DNA from: Fibrobacter sp.
Lineage (GTDB): Bacteria; Fibrobacterota; Fibrobacteria; Fibrobacterales; Fibrobacteraceae
Assembly: GCA_017526585.1 (NCBI GenBank)
Contig: JAFXRC010000003.1
Location: 1 to 64,000, forward strand
DNA length: 64,000 nt
Direction: 5' to 3'
The notes under the pieces were generated by a model. That model did no database searches. It saw nothing but the letters and a program-made list of their open reading frames with translations, and was not told where the DNA came from. Both the position numbers and the translations under genes were made by a program. This document shows positions 2,988-32,880 of the stretch, in pieces. Each line of letters opens with the position of its first letter. Position 1 is the stretch's first letter.

Positions 2988-3014
2988 GTAATCATTGGTC
3001 GAAGTCGCATTCAT

Positions 3015-4298
3015 TTAAAGCAAATCCGGGTCAATCGTCGGTTCGTAACCAGGCTGCACGAAATCTTCGGGTGCAATACCACGCTTGCGCGCCGCCTTTT
3101 CTTGCTTGATGCGTTTGCGTTCGGCAGCCTTAGCCTTGCGGTTAGCTGCACGGGCGGCACGTTCGGCGAAACGCTGGGCACGCGTCTTGCGCTCCTTCAA
3201 TTCCGGGAAAACACCTTCGTCAAACACATCCAGATTTTCAGATTCAGCTTCATCCGATTCGTAGCCTTCGCTAAAGCGCATTTCGGGATCAAAGTCGCGG
3301 AAGCCTTCATCTTCGTCATCAAAGACAGGAGCTTCAGCCGGGCATTCCTTCTTGAGGAGTTTAAGAACTTGTTCGAAAGGCTTTTCGAGAGGCACCTTGA
3401 ATTTCATCTTCTTGCCCGTAGTCGGGTGGATGAGTTCAATCTTAACCGCCTGCAAAAGCTGCGCCGGAGCAATTTCCAGGACCTTCGCCGCAATATCTTT
3501 CATCAGAGGCGAGACGCGGTTCAGGCAGCCGTCGCGACCATCGTAAAGCGGGTCACCAACTACAGGGTGTCCCATATAGCGGCTATGCACACGAATCTGG
3601 TGCGTACGGCCAGATTCCAGCTGCAATTCCAGAAGCGTCGCAAACGCAAAGAACTTCTTAGCCACAAAGTGCGTGCGGCTTTCCTTGCCGCCAGTCACGA
3701 CAGCCATCTTGAGGCGGTTCTTCGGGTTACGCCCGATGGGGGCATCAATAGTCCCTTCCAAGTCGCGAGGATGCCCCCACACCAGGGCATTATAGGTACG
3801 GTGCAGCGTACGAGTTTCGAGCTGGTGCGCCAAGTGCCTATGGGCAGCATCGTTCTTCGCCACCACCATAAGCCCTGGTGTATCCTTGTCCAGTCGATGG
3901 ACAATGCCCGGGCGTAACGGACCGTTCACTGCAGACAAGTTTTCTTTAAAGTGGTACAAGAGACCTGCAGCAAGCGTACCGTTCTGCACGCCGTTGCCCG
4001 GATGCACCACCAGGTTGCGCGGCTTGTTAAGCACCACGATGTCATCGTCTTCATAAACGATATCGAGGGGAATGTTTTCGGGTTCAAGCGTACTCGCTTC
4101 TTTCTCAGGAACCTTGTCCACCACTACGACCATACCCGCTTCGACGCGGAAATTCTTGGAGGACGCGACTCCGCCCACCTTGACTTCACCCGCAGCAATC
4201 AGCTTCTGGATATCGGTGCGGGAGACATTCTCCATGACCCCCACAAGGAACTTGTCGATGCGTTCGCCATTATGTTCTTCTTTAACGAGGTAGTTCAT
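3015..4298 (-). CDS. rluD: RluD-family 23S rRNA pseudouridine synthase with a Lys/Arg-rich tail
   Basis: 427 aa against about 320 for the family. An N-terminal S4 RNA-binding domain (about 1-65) precedes the catalytic domain. The catalytic Asp is D137 in GIVHRLDKDT, and LESGRTHQIRVH is the second conserved block. After about residue 325 the protein has an acidic stretch (DDEDEGFRDFD) and then a very basic tail (RAANRKAKAAERKRIKQEK), which is unusual for RluD and may add rRNA affinity. The ATG overlaps the lspA stop as TAATG, implying translational coupling. The exact target uridines cannot be told from sequence (RluA, RluC and RluD share motifs). Confidence 0.88.
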   Translation of the reverse strand: MNYLVKEEHNGERIDKFLVGVMENVSRTDIQKLIAAGEVKVGGVASSKNFRVEAGMVVVVDKVPEKEASTLEPENIPLDIVYEDDDIVVLNKPRNLVVHPGNGVQNGTLAAGLLYHFKENLSAVNGPLRPGIVHRLDKDTPGLMVVAKNDAAHRHLAHQLETRTLHRTYNALVWGHPRDLEGTIDAPIGRNPKNRLKMAVVTGGKESRTHFVAKKFFAFATLLELQLESGRTHQIRVHSRYMGHPVVGDPLYDGRDGCLNRVSPLMKDIAAKVLEIAPAQLLQAVKIELIHPTTGKKMKFKVPLEKPFEQVLKLLKKECPAEAPVFDDEDEGFRDFDPEMRFSEGYESDEAESENLDVFDEGVFPELKERKTRAQRFAERAARAANRKAKAAERKRIKQEKAARKRGIAPEDFVQPGYEPTIDPDLL

Positions 4299-26696: not shown

Positions 26697-26769
26697 GCCT
26701 GGGTAATTTAACGGGATAAAATACGTCCCTCCTAAGGATGATATCCGCGTTCGAGTCGCGGCCCGGGTA
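26697..26769 (+). tRNA. tRNA-Arg (anticodon CCU, reads AGG)
   Basis: 73 nt. Acceptor GCCTGGG (26697-26703) pairs with CCCGGGT (26762-26768) with two G-U pairs. Anticodon stem CGTCC/GGATG encloses loop CTCCTAA, giving anticodon CCT. T-arm CCGCG-TTCGAGT-CGCGG (26745-26761). The discriminator is A, and CCA is not encoded. A strong terminator follows. Confidence 0.9.
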
Positions 26770-26807: not shown

Positions 26808-26998
26808 GGGAGTTCAGAGACTAGCCAAAATACGCAAAAATCATTCCATATTGGAATATCGTTTTACCTTTAATTTAGGGATTTCTTCGTTTATTTCGAA
26901 CAAAATTTCAACTTTTTGTAAAAAAATTACACCTTTTTGAAATTTTGGAGTTATCTTTAAAGCGAAATAGAGTTTTTGCTCTTGTTCTCTGTGTGAAA

Positions 26999-27209
26999 TC
27001 TCGACCATTTCCTTAGACGAGAACGAGGCGAACGCTCACGCAGACATGCCGTTTTACGGCGTGTTTCAGTTTGCTATACCGACACATTGTCGGTCTTTGG
27101 TCGTACGACCAAGGGCAACAGCCCTTTGGGGGCGTGGGTCGTTTGCGTTTATCGTCTAAAGGCTGTCGAGAGCCCCACACAGATAAATGCAACGACTTAC
27201 GCCTTTTTT
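26999..27209 (+). promoter_or_regulatory. Structured leader RNA with two mutually exclusive folds (candidate riboswitch/attenuator)
   Basis: Fold 1 (antiterminator). P1 pairs 26999-27005 with 27165-27171 (7 bp) and 27011-27020 with 27152-27162 (10 bp, one bulge). P2 pairs 27028-27034 with 27140-27146 and 27037-27041 with 27132-27136. Inside P2 are hairpins at 27044-27064 (8 bp), 27078-27094 (7 bp, CAT loop), 27097-27112 (TTGGTC/GACCAA) and 27113-27124 (GGGC/GCCC). Fold 2 is the terminator entry below, which uses the P1 and P2 3' strands. A TATCTTT box at 26952-26958 could be the promoter. I recognise no known riboswitch or T-box consensus. An independent small RNA with its own terminator is the main alternative. 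Confidence 0.7.
27131..27209 (+). terminator. Leader terminator competing with the antiterminator helices
   Basis: 27131-27153 pairs with 27182-27203: 22 bp with three G-U pairs and a single bulged T (27144), followed by T6 (27204-27209). The loop holds a small GGCT/AGCC hairpin (27161-27164 with 27171-27174). It ends 74 nt before the lipoprotein ATG. Confidence 0.85.
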
Positions 27210-27255
27210 GTATTCACACAAAAATTCGGCTTAAATCTTTATCGGCAGGGGCGAA

Positions 27256-27278
27256 CTCCGGATTTTTAAACACGGAGG
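27256..27278 (+). promoter_or_regulatory. Shine-Dalgarno with a facing anti-SD hairpin
   Basis: The GGAGG (27274-27278) lies 5 nt before the ATG at 27284. CTCCG (27256-27260) can pair with CGGAG (27273-27277) across a 12-nt loop, masking most of the ribosome binding site. Confidence 0.45.
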
Positions 27279-27283
27279 CTGTC

Positions 27284-29929
27284 ATGGCTACAAATCATGC
27301 ATCCAGGGTTATCGCGAGTGTCGCGATTGGGTTTATCTTCTTCCTCGCCGCTTGCGGTGACGAAGAAGCATCTGGGTATGTCACAAATATCAACCAGACG
27401 GGTGTGGATGTGGTGGCATCTGTGGATGAACTCCCCAAGTGTCAAAAGGATAACGAGGGTTATCTGGTCTTTGTGAAGGGAGAAAACACTGCGCGAATTT
27501 GCGTAGACGGCAAGTGGTTTTCTATAAAGGACTCTTCGGACAACGGCGACATTAGCTGCTCCACCAAGGAACTAAAGGATGGTTCAGGGCTTAAAATTGT
27601 ATGCAATGGCGACAGTATTGGCGTGGTGCTGAACGGCGCGGCAGGCAAGGATGGTACAGATGGTAAAAATGGAACCGATGGCAAGAACGGTGATGATGGA
27701 GCAAGTTGTGCCGTTACGGAACAGACTGATTCTTATGTCAACATCAAATGCGGTGACAAGAACTTGACTCTGAATCTGGGCGAGGGTGACGGTGTGGTGA
27801 GCGTTGATACGAGTGGACTTGATTCCGAAAAGATTGCTATTTCGCTCGACACCTTGTCCGGTGTTTCGCAGAAGGGGCCATTCCTGAAGGGCTCCATGGT
27901 TTACTTGTATGAACTTTCTGATGGTCGCACCCTTAAGCAGACGAATGGAAACTTTATGAGTGAAATTACGAGCGATGACGGTCGTTTTGGGTTTGCTGCT
28001 CGTAATTTGATGAGTCAGTACGCCCTAATCATGGTGGACGGCAAGTACCGTAACGAAGTGACTGGTGATCCGACGACTACGACGATTCGCCTGCAAGCGT
28101 ATACGGATGTGCTCAGTCGCAAGAAGGCGAATGTGAACTTGTTGACACACCTAGAGAAGAATCGTGTGTATTACCTAGTAACGCAAGAAAAGAAACGCTT
28201 CAAGGTGGCGAAACACCAGGCTCAGATGGAGATTCTTGACGCATTCCATATCGATACGACGGGAATCAACAAGTCGTCGGAGGATTTGAATGTATTCGGC
28301 AGTTCCGATGCAGATGCGGCTCTTCTTGCTATCTCTATATTATTACAGCGGGATTCCAGTGAGACGGAACTTTCCGTGCTGCTGACCGACATGGCAAGCG
28401 ACATGGAAAAGGACGGCAAATGGGATAACTCGGTGACAAAGGCAAGTGTTGCAGAATGGGCGGCAACAATGGATTCTTCCGTTTCTACATCAACAAGTAA
28501 ACTAGCGGATTTCCGTAGCCATGTGAAAGACTGGAAACTCGGTGGCGATAATGTTCCCAACTTTGAGAAGTTTATCCGAAAGTTTTGGAGTAAGGAACTC
28601 GGCCTTGGCGTGTGTGGCGACAAGGATAATCCTGTCGGAACAATGAAGAATGTGTCAAACCCAAAGGCTTCCAGATACTACGCGTCGGGCTACACCGATG
28701 CGGGCAACAAGGTTCGCTTCATCTGTGATGACGCAAGCCTTTCCAGGTGGCGCGCTGCGACAGACATTGAGAAAGATACTATGGGATGGGCTAGAGAATT
28801 CAAGAACGCCAAGGATGGTGATGTCCATAACGGCAAGGTGAACTCTAATGTGACTTATGTCTATGAAAACAAGAACTGGCGCTTGGGAACGGAAGTAGAT
28901 AGTCTGTTGTTCAATGCCGGTGGCAAGGGGTGCATTAAAAATGGCGATACCTCAACCGTCAAATACAACGATGAGTATTATGTTTGTACAGCGCAGTCGA
29001 ACGGCAGTATACCGCACAAGTGGGTAGTAGCTCCGCCTTTCTATAACGATACTTACGAGTCGCGAGACAGTTGTTCGAAGAATGGCAAGTACAGTGATGG
29101 TACAATCCTTGTGGGCCGTGTGAATACGGGGAATAAGTATGTATGTGACAATGGAGAATTTAGGGTAGCAAAAAAACTTGAAATCGATGGAGGCAAGGGG
29201 TGTACGAGTTATAATCCTAGAGAATTATATGTTCTAAAGCATCAATATTCTTACTACAAGTGTACAGAATCTGGCTGGGAGTTTACTCTAGAAAAACTGA
29301 ACATAGATTCGATTTCCTATGGCGGTCAAACCTACAGGACAATTGGCATCAAGACTCAGAACTGGATGGCGGAAAACTTGAATTATGAAGTCGCAAACAG
29401 CTATTGCTATGATGGTTTTGCCGACAGCTGTGCGAAGTATGGCCGCCTTTATACCTGGGCTGCGGCGGTAGGCAAGTCCGAAGAAGAATGCGGTTATGGT
29501 AAAGTTTGCGGCCTCTCCGGTGTGGTGCGTGGAATTTGTCCCGAAGGTTGGCATCTGCCTAGCAGCAGCGAATGGGAAACCCTGTATTCTGCCATAGGCG
29601 GCAGCCCATATGCGATGCAGGCGAAGAATGTAACCGAATGGCCTTATGCGACAGATGCCTATGGTTTTTCCGCCCTCCCAGCCGGAACCCGTGCTGGACA
29701 AGAATGCATATGGGATAATACCTGTAATTTCGAAGACATTTCTAATTTTTACTTCTATGGCATTGGCTCTTTATCTGTCTTCTTGGCTACAACAACTGAT
29801 GACTATGATGTTCCCTTCTCGTGTAAATTGTATTCTACAAGAGCGAAACTCTCCTACTGGGAAGACGATGGCTGGGCTGTTCCCAAATCTTCCGGATTTT
29901 CTGTTCGTTGTCTCCAAGATGAACCATAA
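27284..29929 (+). CDS. FISUMP-domain surface lipoprotein
   Basis: 881 aa. The start at 27284 is set by GGAGG and by the signal peptide; frames extending upstream run through the structured leader. The lipobox is LAAC with Cys24. Residues 121-141 are seven collagen-like G-X-Y triplets (GKDGTDGKNGTDG...). A large middle part (about 160-500) has a repeat-free domain starting SGVSQKGPFLKGSMVYLYEL. Cys-rich short repeats follow (about 510-670). Residues 679-881 are the FISUMP domain (TIGR02145 type): YRTIGIKTQNWMAENLNY, CPEGWHLPSSSEWETL and DAYGFSALPAGTR. Probably a cell-surface protein; the ligand is unknown. It is the first gene of the accessory block. Confidence 0.9.
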   Translation: MATNHASRVIASVAIGFIFFLAACGDEEASGYVTNINQTGVDVVASVDELPKCQKDNEGYLVFVKGENTARICVDGKWFSIKDSSDNGDISCSTKELKDGSGLKIVCNGDSIGVVLNGAAGKDGTDGKNGTDGKNGDDGASCAVTEQTDSYVNIKCGDKNLTLNLGEGDGVVSVDTSGLDSEKIAISLDTLSGVSQKGPFLKGSMVYLYELSDGRTLKQTNGNFMSEITSDDGRFGFAARNLMSQYALIMVDGKYRNEVTGDPTTTTIRLQAYTDVLSRKKANVNLLTHLEKNRVYYLVTQEKKRFKVAKHQAQMEILDAFHIDTTGINKSSEDLNVFGSSDADAALLAISILLQRDSSETELSVLLTDMASDMEKDGKWDNSVTKASVAEWAATMDSSVSTSTSKLADFRSHVKDWKLGGDNVPNFEKFIRKFWSKELGLGVCGDKDNPVGTMKNVSNPKASRYYASGYTDAGNKVRFICDDASLSRWRAATDIEKDTMGWAREFKNAKDGDVHNGKVNSNVTYVYENKNWRLGTEVDSLLFNAGGKGCIKNGDTSTVKYNDEYYVCTAQSNGSIPHKWVVAPPFYNDTYESRDSCSKNGKYSDGTILVGRVNTGNKYVCDNGEFRVAKKLEIDGGKGCTSYNPRELYVLKHQYSYYKCTESGWEFTLEKLNIDSISYGGQTYRTIGIKTQNWMAENLNYEVANSYCYDGFADSCAKYGRLYTWAAAVGKSEEECGYGKVCGLSGVVRGICPEGWHLPSSSEWETLYSAIGGSPYAMQAKNVTEWPYATDAYGFSALPAGTRAGQECIWDNTCNFEDISNFYFYGIGSLSVFLATTTDDYDVPFSCKLYSTRAKLSYWEDDGWAVPKSSGFSVRCLQDEP

Positions 29930-31000: not shown

Positions 31001-31504
31001 CTACTTTTTAAGAGCATCGAGCCTAGCCTTTGCCTCGGCAATCTTTTCCGGCGGAAGGCCCATGTCTTTCAACACGCTGATTGCATCAGCGTGACCTTCG
31101 TCTTTGCCTTCAAATTTTCCTTCATCACGAGCTTTTTCGGCTTTTTTCTCTGCTTCAGCAATCTGCTTACGGAAATAGTCTCCGGCACTTTCAAAGCCGT
31201 ATTTTTGTCCAATGCTTACGAATGCCATGTCTAGCTCCTTGAAAATGTCCCTGCCGAGATACTCCATCAAATATATATTTATTTTCTGCCAAAGGCAAGA
31301 CGCCTCGTCGCGGGGCAATTTTCGCAATTTTTCGTTGAATTGCGGTAGAGTTTCAAGCAATTTGTCTTTGTTGTACGCGTATTTCATTGCAATAATCCCC
31401 ATACCGGTAGCGATATCTTCGCAAGCGAGACAATCGCTGTCGGGAATATCCGCCATGTTCACAAAGGCATGCATGAACGGCAGCATGGAAGGCTGGTAGT
31501 CTTC
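31001..31504 (-). pseudogene. 5'-truncated Rpn-family nuclease (PD-(D/E)XK transposase-like) remnant
   Basis: The readable frame (about 168 residues) matches only the C-terminal half of Rpn/YhgA-like proteins. MLPFMHAFVNMADIPDSDCL and IATGMGIIAMKYAYNKDKL correspond to the YPFKVEFLDV and FTLVALTAMKYIWN segments of the intact copy at 31876-32880. It ends with a Lys/Glu-rich coiled tail (AEAEKKAEKARDEGKFEGKDEGHADA) and VLKDMGLPPEKI. The catalytic N-terminal half is missing. Homology stops at about 31505, close to where a FISUMP fragment on the other strand begins. Confidence 0.75.
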
Positions 31505-31519
31505 AATTCTGTTATGAAG

Positions 31520-31783
31520 AACAGCGCCAACATGATGCAAGCGATGGGCTTTGCTGGCGAGACCAGTGCGAAAGACGCTTACGGATTTTCAGCGCTTCCT
31601 GCCGGTCGATTCGATGGTCAAATCGACATTGGTCTCTCCGCCCATTTCTGGAGTTCTTCTGAGTCTAGTATTCGTTTAGCCAATGTCTGGAGCATGACTG
31701 CGAGCGCAGCGCTTCTCAGCGAAATCCAGAAACACTACGGGATATCAGTTCGATGCATAAAGGATAAACCCGAAGCCCCCTAG
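31520..31783 (+). pseudogene. 5'-truncated FISUMP-domain gene remnant
   Basis: The frame reads NMMQAMG...DAYGFSALPAGRFDGQ...AHFWSSSESS...YGISVRCIKDKPEAP. This is the last third of a FISUMP domain and closely parallels the C-terminus of the intact lipoprotein at 29.6-29.9 kb, with a normal stop. The signal peptide, lipobox and the start of the domain are gone. Confidence 0.75.
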
Positions 31784-31875: not shown

Positions 31876-32880
31876 TTATTTAATTGCCCGCATTGCAGCA
31901 ATCACGTCTTCCGGGATGTTCTGAGAACGGAGATAATCCTCCCTTCTTGAGTCACGAGCTGCAATCTCTGCTTCGCTCTTTTCGCGTTCTTGCTTAGCAC
32001 CTTTTTCGATACCAACATTCACGAAGTGCTCGGCGAATGTCTCGTATCCCTTGTTCGCGACAATTTCAGGTCTGTCCATCTTGAGGTTCCCCCGCTTGTA
32101 AGGCCACTTCCACAGGAAATATGAAAGCGCCTGCTTGATGAAATCCCTTCCCTTGTCCGTATTCTGCCACTTGAGCAGACGCATCGCAGCCTCGCGGAAG
32201 GTAGCCGAGAACTGCTCCGCATTCCAAATATACTTCATCGCAGTAAGTGCGACAAGAGTAAACGGCGAAAAATCCTTCAGTTCCTTGTCATCAATTGCAT
32301 GCCCCACATCCAAGAATTCCACCTTGAAGGGGTATCCGATGTCGTGATAGAATTCGGGATATTCGGCATAGTGCGTCTCCGAAAGCGGATTCCAATCGTT
32401 TTCGCCGTTATAAACGATGAAGGCAACCACCGGCACATCTTTCTTGCGTTCCAGATACAAATGATGGTAGTATTCCGATATTTGCTTCATCACTTCGCTG
32501 TCCTCGCTGGACTTGTGTTCGGCAATAATACCCACATAGAGCGCCGCGGTACCACCGTCCTTGATTTGCGCTTCAAATACAAGGTCGGAGTAGCCCACAT
32601 GCTTGTCACTGGAGAAGTTCTCGCTTGCGCCATGGAGCGTCGACAGATCGATGGTGTCGAGGAAAGCCTTGAGCGTCGGGTTATGGCGCGAGAATAGAGT
32701 CAATAGTTCCGCCATGCGCTCCGGGTCCGCAAACGCAAAGCGCAAAAAACGGTCATGAGTGAAGTTGCTTTCGCCCTCGACAGAATCCAAAATGACCTGG
32801 AATTCGTGAGCAATATCGCGAATGACGGAATCCGGAGACTCCTGCGGGGTGTTGTTTTCAATACTTTCTTTTTCTGACAT
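31876..32880 (-). CDS. Rpn-family recombination-promoting nuclease / putative transposase
   Basis: 334 aa. PD-(D/E)XK fold: D99 (GYSDLVFEAQ) and E121-x-K123 (IIAEHKSS) give an intact catalytic triad. Rpn proteins of E. coli are DNA endonucleases linked to RecA-independent recombination, and the family is also annotated as transposase_31. The C-terminal region ends with a charged coil (EKGAKQEREKSEAEIAARDSRRED) and IPEDVIAAMRAIK. No terminal repeats or target duplications of an insertion sequence are obvious. A second, truncated family member lies 0.4 kb away. Confidence 0.88.
   Translation of the reverse strand: MSEKESIENNTPQESPDSVIRDIAHEFQVILDSVEGESNFTHDRFLRFAFADPERMAELLTLFSRHNPTLKAFLDTIDLSTLHGASENFSSDKHVGYSDLVFEAQIKDGGTAALYVGIIAEHKSSEDSEVMKQISEYYHHLYLERKKDVPVVAFIVYNGENDWNPLSETHYAEYPEFYHDIGYPFKVEFLDVGHAIDDKELKDFSPFTLVALTAMKYIWNAEQFSATFREAAMRLLKWQNTDKGRDFIKQALSYFLWKWPYKRGNLKMDRPEIVANKGYETFAEHFVNVGIEKGAKQEREKSEAEIAARDSRREDYLRSQNIPEDVIAAMRAIK

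Follow-up and report, generated by a model that had tools for sequence, protein, structure and literature searches.

A multi-copy leader RNA of Fibrobacterota with two mutually exclusive folds, a probable transcription attenuator upstream of restriction-modification and surface-protein genes

The leader at about 26969-27209 of the window (the whole 64,000-nt stretch of Fibrobacter sp. DNA analysed here, contig JAFXRC010000003.1) very probably belongs to a class of cis-acting transcription attenuators that occurs in multiple copies in Fibrobacterota and through which one signal would act on restriction-modification (R-M), defence-type and surface or exported genes. The two folds of this RNA and their nearly equal energies, the covariation, the copy number, the distribution and the gene context described below were all computed directly. 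The structure, the exclusivity of the folds and the U-tract support transcription attenuation as the predicted mode of action.

Results

Parts of the leader

The leader had been noticed in a first-pass annotation of the DNA letters, and the antiterminator helices, hairpins and terminator named there were all confirmed, none lying more than 1-2 nt from its stated position. That annotation lacked three parts, P1, helix A and the P0 hairpin; P1 and helix A were missed because its region began at 26999. All features given here are on the plus strand.

At the 5' end, the small hairpin P0 (AGAG-UUUUUG-CUCU, 26969-26982, arms 26969-26972 and 26979-26982) was read from the sequence; its 3' arm doubles as helix A sequence, and its motif, AGAG...CTCTT, is present 5' of most of the long-form leaders listed. 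Helix A (26981-27027) pairs CUUGUUCUC at 26981-26989 with GAGAACGAG at 27019-27027, as indicated by folding and by a G-C to A-U double change between the long and short forms at column pair 6-51. The 5' strands of P1-P3 sit in its loop, and it opposes the antiterminator. The outermost antiterminator helix, P1 (26990-26995 with 27176-27181), and the helices P2 (26999-27005 with 27165-27171) and P3 (27013-27019 with 27153-27159) were recognised by covariation. The antiterminator stem P4 (27028-27034 with 27140-27146 and 27035-27041 with 27132-27138, with one bulged U) was predicted by folding and is conserved in sequence; the terminator uses the P4 3' strand as its own 5' strand. Inside P4 lies an insert domain (27043-27131), which has its own covariation and is missing from the short form of the RNA; it consists of a hairpin at 27044-27064, a unit closed by UUGC/GCAA that holds two hairpins, and then a CCC/GGG helix. 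The four consecutive hairpins of the first-pass annotation were located in the apical loop of P4.

Two small hairpins belong to the same core. The loop of H5 (GAAAU/AUUUC, 26995-26999 with 27007-27011) is most of the P2 5' strand and that of H3 (GGC/GCC, 27161-27163 with 27172-27174) is the P2 3' strand; P2 is possibly a loop-loop contact between H5 and H3. The GAAA..UUUC element of H5 is conserved across the RNA family as judged by eye, unscored, and AGG/CCU, GGG/CCC and UGG/CCA variants of H3 were seen among homologues, likewise by eye. The intrinsic terminator (27130-27153 with 27182-27204) was identified by folding and in 29 homologues and ends in a U-tract (T6) at 27204-27209. Past the terminator, a GGAGG ribosome-binding site, read from the sequence at 27274-27278, precedes the ATG at 27284 of a gene (27284-29929) for an 881-aa lipoprotein. 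Its C-terminal FISUMP/Fib_succ_major domain matched PF09603 (E 7e-18) and TIGR02145 (E 4e-39), in agreement with the annotated FISUMP lipoprotein.

Two exclusive folds of nearly equal energy

The leader takes either of two mutually exclusive folds, the P1-P4 antiterminator (fold 1) or helix A plus the terminator (fold 2), so that one of the two is an intrinsic terminator with a U-tract, and both folds are kept in homologues. The leader folded more stably than its shuffles (z -7.1; 0 of 200 shuffles as stable). Soft-constraint folding gave -107.1 kcal/mol for fold 1 and -108.5 kcal/mol for fold 2, a gap of 1.4 kcal/mol in predicted energies that leave pseudoknots and proteins out of account; the two long, exclusive folds proposed earlier are thereby borne out. 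When helix A was left out of the folding the antiterminator appeared dominant, and with helix A included the folds were near balance. The energy difference between the folds averaged -1.3 +/- 3.6 over 31 long copies and -8.0 +/- 4.9 over 120 short copies. When the helix-A loop was exchanged between loci, the difference was +4.7 and the balance was lost. Along the growing transcript, the predicted minimum passed from helix A to helix A with P4, then to P1-P4, and to helix A with the terminator only when the U-tract was complete. The window terminator was absent from the list of a simple terminator scan, whose pattern does not allow a loop of this length.

Covariation and conservation

Compensatory changes had been expected in both sets of helices; they were strong in the antiterminator helices P1-P3, whereas the terminator and helix A showed few double changes. 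In the 29 long-form homologues, 5 of the 6 pairs of P1 changed on both sides, with 100% of cells paired, and double changes were found at 5 of 7 pairs in P2 and at 6 of 7 in P3. Over the whole of fold 1, 99.4% of cells were paired in the 29 long-form sequences and 147 cells were double-changed, against 38.9 in shuffles; the short form, with 45 sequences, gave 196 against 50.8. The same pairing emerged from an alignment-free test, where the best partner of the helix-A loop was its own terminator loop at each of 56 non-redundant loci (duplex energies averaged -28.7 kcal/mol for own loops and -10.0 kcal/mol for mismatched loci). The insert domain was paired in 97.1% of cells, with 41 double-changed cells.

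Fold 2 was paired in 99.5% of cells and mostly invariant, and the terminator stem, which has many G-U pairs, in 99.7% of cells in the 29 homologues. Because the terminator and helix A are conserved at the sequence level, covariation supports the antiterminator far more than the terminator, for which the evidence is conservation, tolerance of G-U pairs and the U-tract. The many G-U pairs and the U-tract argue for an element that works as RNA rather than DNA; a DNA-level hairpin serving as a recombination site is disfavoured by the same G-U pairs.

The resulting pattern is one in which the strands of helix A, P4 and the terminator are conserved in sequence and P1-P3 drift freely. We considered whether P1-P3 might act as orthogonal barcodes, with selection against cross-pairing of copies in the same genome, and rejected this, as strong cross-pairs made up 4.9% within genomes and 6.1% between them. 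Since the copies show no avoidance of cross-talk, P1 and P3 behave as ordinary, freely drifting helices.

A leader peptide was likewise rejected. Some ATG ORF of at least 8 codons occurs in 90 of 120 short leaders, and 41 of the 120 have an ORF with a Shine-Dalgarno-like site. No conserved short ORF overlapping the switch was found in the 120 short leaders, no start is common to all of them, and leader lengths spread over all three frame classes (52/48/35).

Distribution and forms of the RNA family

A DNA search found relatives of the leader in 75 of 80 Fibrobacter genomes. When 26 sequences were used to build covariance model R1, the model located 13 copies in the window's own genome. It also matched 79 of those 80 genomes, usually with several copies each, and further genera of Fibrobacteraceae. 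Ten genomes were then picked among known carriers and every copy was taken, whatever its target; they held 6 to 16 copies each, 107 in total after split matches were merged.

The class is not confined to Fibrobacteraceae. Models R2 and R3 found it in three other families of Fibrobacterota, with up to six copies per genome, and most genomes of these families had no match. By eye, the distant copies keep the order P1, GAAA-P2-UUUC, P3, P4, P3', GG(G)U-P2'-ACC(U)C, P1', U-tract. The training set of R3 included five distant loci, and its other distant copies are independent of the model; this architecture and the further copies found with R3 rule out chance as the source of the R1 matches in distant genomes. 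Outside Fibrobacterota, coverage was by an exact-motif scan of a public genome collection alone, in which the matches listed belonged to Fibrobacter, Fibrobacteraceae or Fibrobacterales bar three contigs (L316, L323 and L329). These three, among the matches listed, are filed as Bacteroidales MAGs and may be mis-binned or reflect transfer. The exact core motif was unmatched in viral contigs, and phage carriage or phage decoys were accordingly discarded.

Two forms occur. The long form, to which the window copy belongs, is about 230 nt and carries the structured four-hairpin insert inside P4; in the short form, of about 150-165 nt, a small loop replaces it. Many short forms also carry, about 64 nt upstream of helix A, a TATATT-like element, together with a GACATAG sequence and a further hairpin.

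At several loci, leader copies lie in tandem within a few kb, each with its own gene (L136:1201-1358 and 3009-3165; also L142, L116, L111, L168, L110, L126 and others); at one such locus the genes are a DUF4417-like gene and then a 793-aa gene without a Pfam match. In two copies, L148:6001-6153 (minus strand) and L142:3307-3460, the 5' and 3' halves are mismatched in P1, and in L148 also in P3, as if they were products of recombination or gene conversion between copies.

Genes downstream of the leader

In the ten genomes, 93 copies were examined, and for 91 of them a same-strand ORF of 45 codons or more begins no further than 450 nt downstream. Genes for DNA methyltransferases of Types I, II, III and ISP, both m6A and m5C, follow at least 40 of the 107 copies. 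Of the 107, 28 have a PF02384 or PF01555 methyltransferase domain no more than 5 kb downstream, and for 26 of these the distance is about 1.2 kb or less. C5 (8), EcoRI-type (3), D12 (2) or MmeI-like (1) methyltransferases follow another 14 copies or more, some of them identified through a scanned protein of the same cluster. Seen from the genes, a copy stands upstream of 16 of 43 PF02384 genes and 12 of 24 PF01555 genes, and the chance expectation, estimated from copy density, is well under 1-2%. About 20 of the 107 copies precede lipoproteins and about 8 more precede other exported proteins, with signal sequences judged by eye.

The proposal of a new class controlling a Fibrobacter surface-protein family therefore held in one half: the class is plausibly new, attenuator-like and outside Rfam, but FISUMP genes are a minority of its targets and the largest functional group is that of DNA methyltransferase and R-M genes. 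Short-form targets identified with Pfam, NCBIfam and PADLOC include Type I HsdM and HsdR, Type III Mod, Type ISP and MmeI-type IIG enzymes, EcoRI-type and D12 methylases and a DISARM DrmD-like helicase; further members of the family precede C5-cytosine methylases. The long forms are found chiefly before genes for FISUMP lipoproteins and for other proteins, exported or unknown; an OLD-like ATPase and one N6_N4 methylase are also among their targets. In the distant families, two copies stand before N6_N4 (PF01555) methylases, one before a weak UDG match and several before exported proteins. As judged from these domain assignments, the targets fall mainly into DNA-methylation/restriction (anti-phage) genes and surface-protein genes.

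Some recurrent neighbours deserve mention. At eight loci (L213, L232, L239, L247, L252, L255, L261 and L270) copies lie 226-390 nt from the start of a C5-cytosine methyltransferase gene, several of them with an insert. A protein family of about 800 aa (MSLFEKLQ..., exemplified by L201:3505-5955 on the minus strand) is a recurrent target with a weak PADLOC match to a type II methyltransferase and no match in Pfam or NCBIfam; it is likely an undescribed R-M-like enzyme. Small EndoU-nuclease genes in R-M loci are also preceded by copies (L120:1951-2694, minus strand; L110, L101 and L168).

Comparison with known RNA families

A search of the whole window against Rfam 15 (4227 families, gathering score) returned tRNA only, the leader alone gave nothing credible up to E 10, and five homologous loci, including some from other families, gave no match. 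The T-box models were unmatched by the window, the leader and the same five loci. The earlier reading, in which no T-box, SAM, TPP, lysine, cobalamin or c-di-GMP-I consensus was recognised, agrees with these searches. In the open-access literature, subscription papers being outside the scope, we found no structured RNA like this leader class in Fibrobacter and no RNA leader of R-M genes; an RNA switch tied to several unrelated R-M types appears to have no earlier description there.

Discussion

We infer the following order of events. Helix A would be made first by RNA polymerase, then P4, in the window form together with the insert domain. The P3', P2' and P1' strands would, as they emerge, pair with the helix A loop; this would open helix A and keep the P4 3' strand engaged, and with no terminator formed the polymerase would read on into the gene (fold 1). 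Should P1-P4 fail to be held, helix A would re-form and the P4 3' strand would pair with the strand before the U-tract (fold 2), stopping transcription at about 27205-27210. A common cellular signal acting on the conserved core (the H5/H3 junction, helix A, P4 and, in the long form, the insert) would tip the balance; a common trigger is suggested because the core is conserved and is shared by unrelated accessory genes. We tentatively propose, as a reading a little less likely than not, that this switch could put unrelated R-M systems, other defence-type genes and surface proteins of several Fibrobacterota families under one signal, so that defences and surface are raised or lowered together.

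The nature of the signal divides the alternatives. It is quite possible, even if we lean the other way, that the leader is a riboswitch in the strict sense, with the H5/H3 junction and the long-form insert forming an aptamer whose small-molecule ligand reports on infection or growth state. A junction-like core whose GAAA..UUUC and AGG..CCU(C) elements are kept across families of the phylum, an insert with covariation of its own and folds of equal energy would all suit such a sensor; the short form, however, has few conserved unpaired nucleotides, and Rfam holds no matching aptamer. The R-M, lipoprotein and hypothetical genes downstream have no pathway in common, which is unusual for a metabolite riboswitch, and we found no single-metabolite regulon among them; such a set of targets speaks against any metabolic riboswitch whose ligand would be obvious.

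Rather more doubtful is control in trans, in which a protein or RNA regulator would bind helix A, P4 and the terminator stem and set termination at all copies. Recognition in trans would be expected to conserve the sequence of just these parts and leave P1-P3 free to drift, which is the pattern found, but a single strand that needs two partners, P4 and the terminator, would explain the conservation as well.

We consider it unlikely that the leader is bistable without any signal, keeping accessory genes that are costly or toxic to the cell itself at a low, noisy or mixed level of expression: the long-form folds lie within a few kcal/mol and the targets (restriction systems, surface proteins) are accessory, but the strong conservation of the extra domain of the long form and of the core motifs suggests that something is recognised. 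A mobile repeat (MITE-like or a recombination site) structured by happenstance, with no regulatory role, is very improbable when judged on copy orientation and context, since the copies, multiple, sometimes tandem and in two cases resembling inter-copy recombination products, almost all precede an ORF in the same orientation and show locus-specific compensatory pairing, G-U pairs and a U-tract.

As a cis-acting attenuator, our preferred reading, the leader is of a known mechanistic kind, and the RNA class, its inverted conservation pattern and its targets appear to be new. Like transcription-terminating riboswitches (SAM, purine, c-di-GMP), it has a 5' position, a complex fold competing with an intrinsic terminator and many unlinked genes per genome; unlike them, its upstream helices vary and its terminator is conserved in sequence, the reverse of the usual pattern, and its R-M and surface genes share no metabolic pathway and its RNA has no Rfam match. 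T-box leaders also choose between terminator and antiterminator, with several stems and multiple copies, whereas the targets here are not amino-acid genes. Attenuators of the trp/his leader-peptide type share the mutually exclusive terminator and antiterminator, but the present class has no conserved start codon or reading frame. R-M genes are known to be regulated by C proteins and antisense RNAs, which are likewise dedicated to the expression of methyltransferase or restriction genes; here, by contrast, a common cis RNA stands before unrelated R-M types. Processive antitermination leaders (ops/RfaH, LoaP, EAR, put) reuse one RNA or DNA element before many accessory operons, as this class does, but in this class a terminator and an antiterminator competing with it are both part of the element.

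The class offers a handle on the control of DNA modification and surface genes in gut Fibrobacter and relatives, with about ten natural copies per genome to compare; with a conserved core and helices that drift freely but are compensated, it is also well suited to the study of how attenuators evolve. Any trigger common to the copies, should there be one, would provide a signal for anti-phage or surface regulation that can be tested.

Surroundings of the leader in the window

A tRNA-Arg (CCT) gene at 26697-26769 lies directly 5' of the leader on the same strand. Elements often insert at the 3' ends of tRNAs, so this may be how the leader and its gene reached the site. Further downstream, the ORF at 31469-31783 ends in a FISUMP-like sequence (AYGFSALPAG...SVRCIKD) and is apparently a fragment of a second FISUMP gene; on either side of it, the minus-strand ORFs at 31001-31540 and 31876-32880 look like relatives of Rpn/PD-(D/E)XK-type nucleases.
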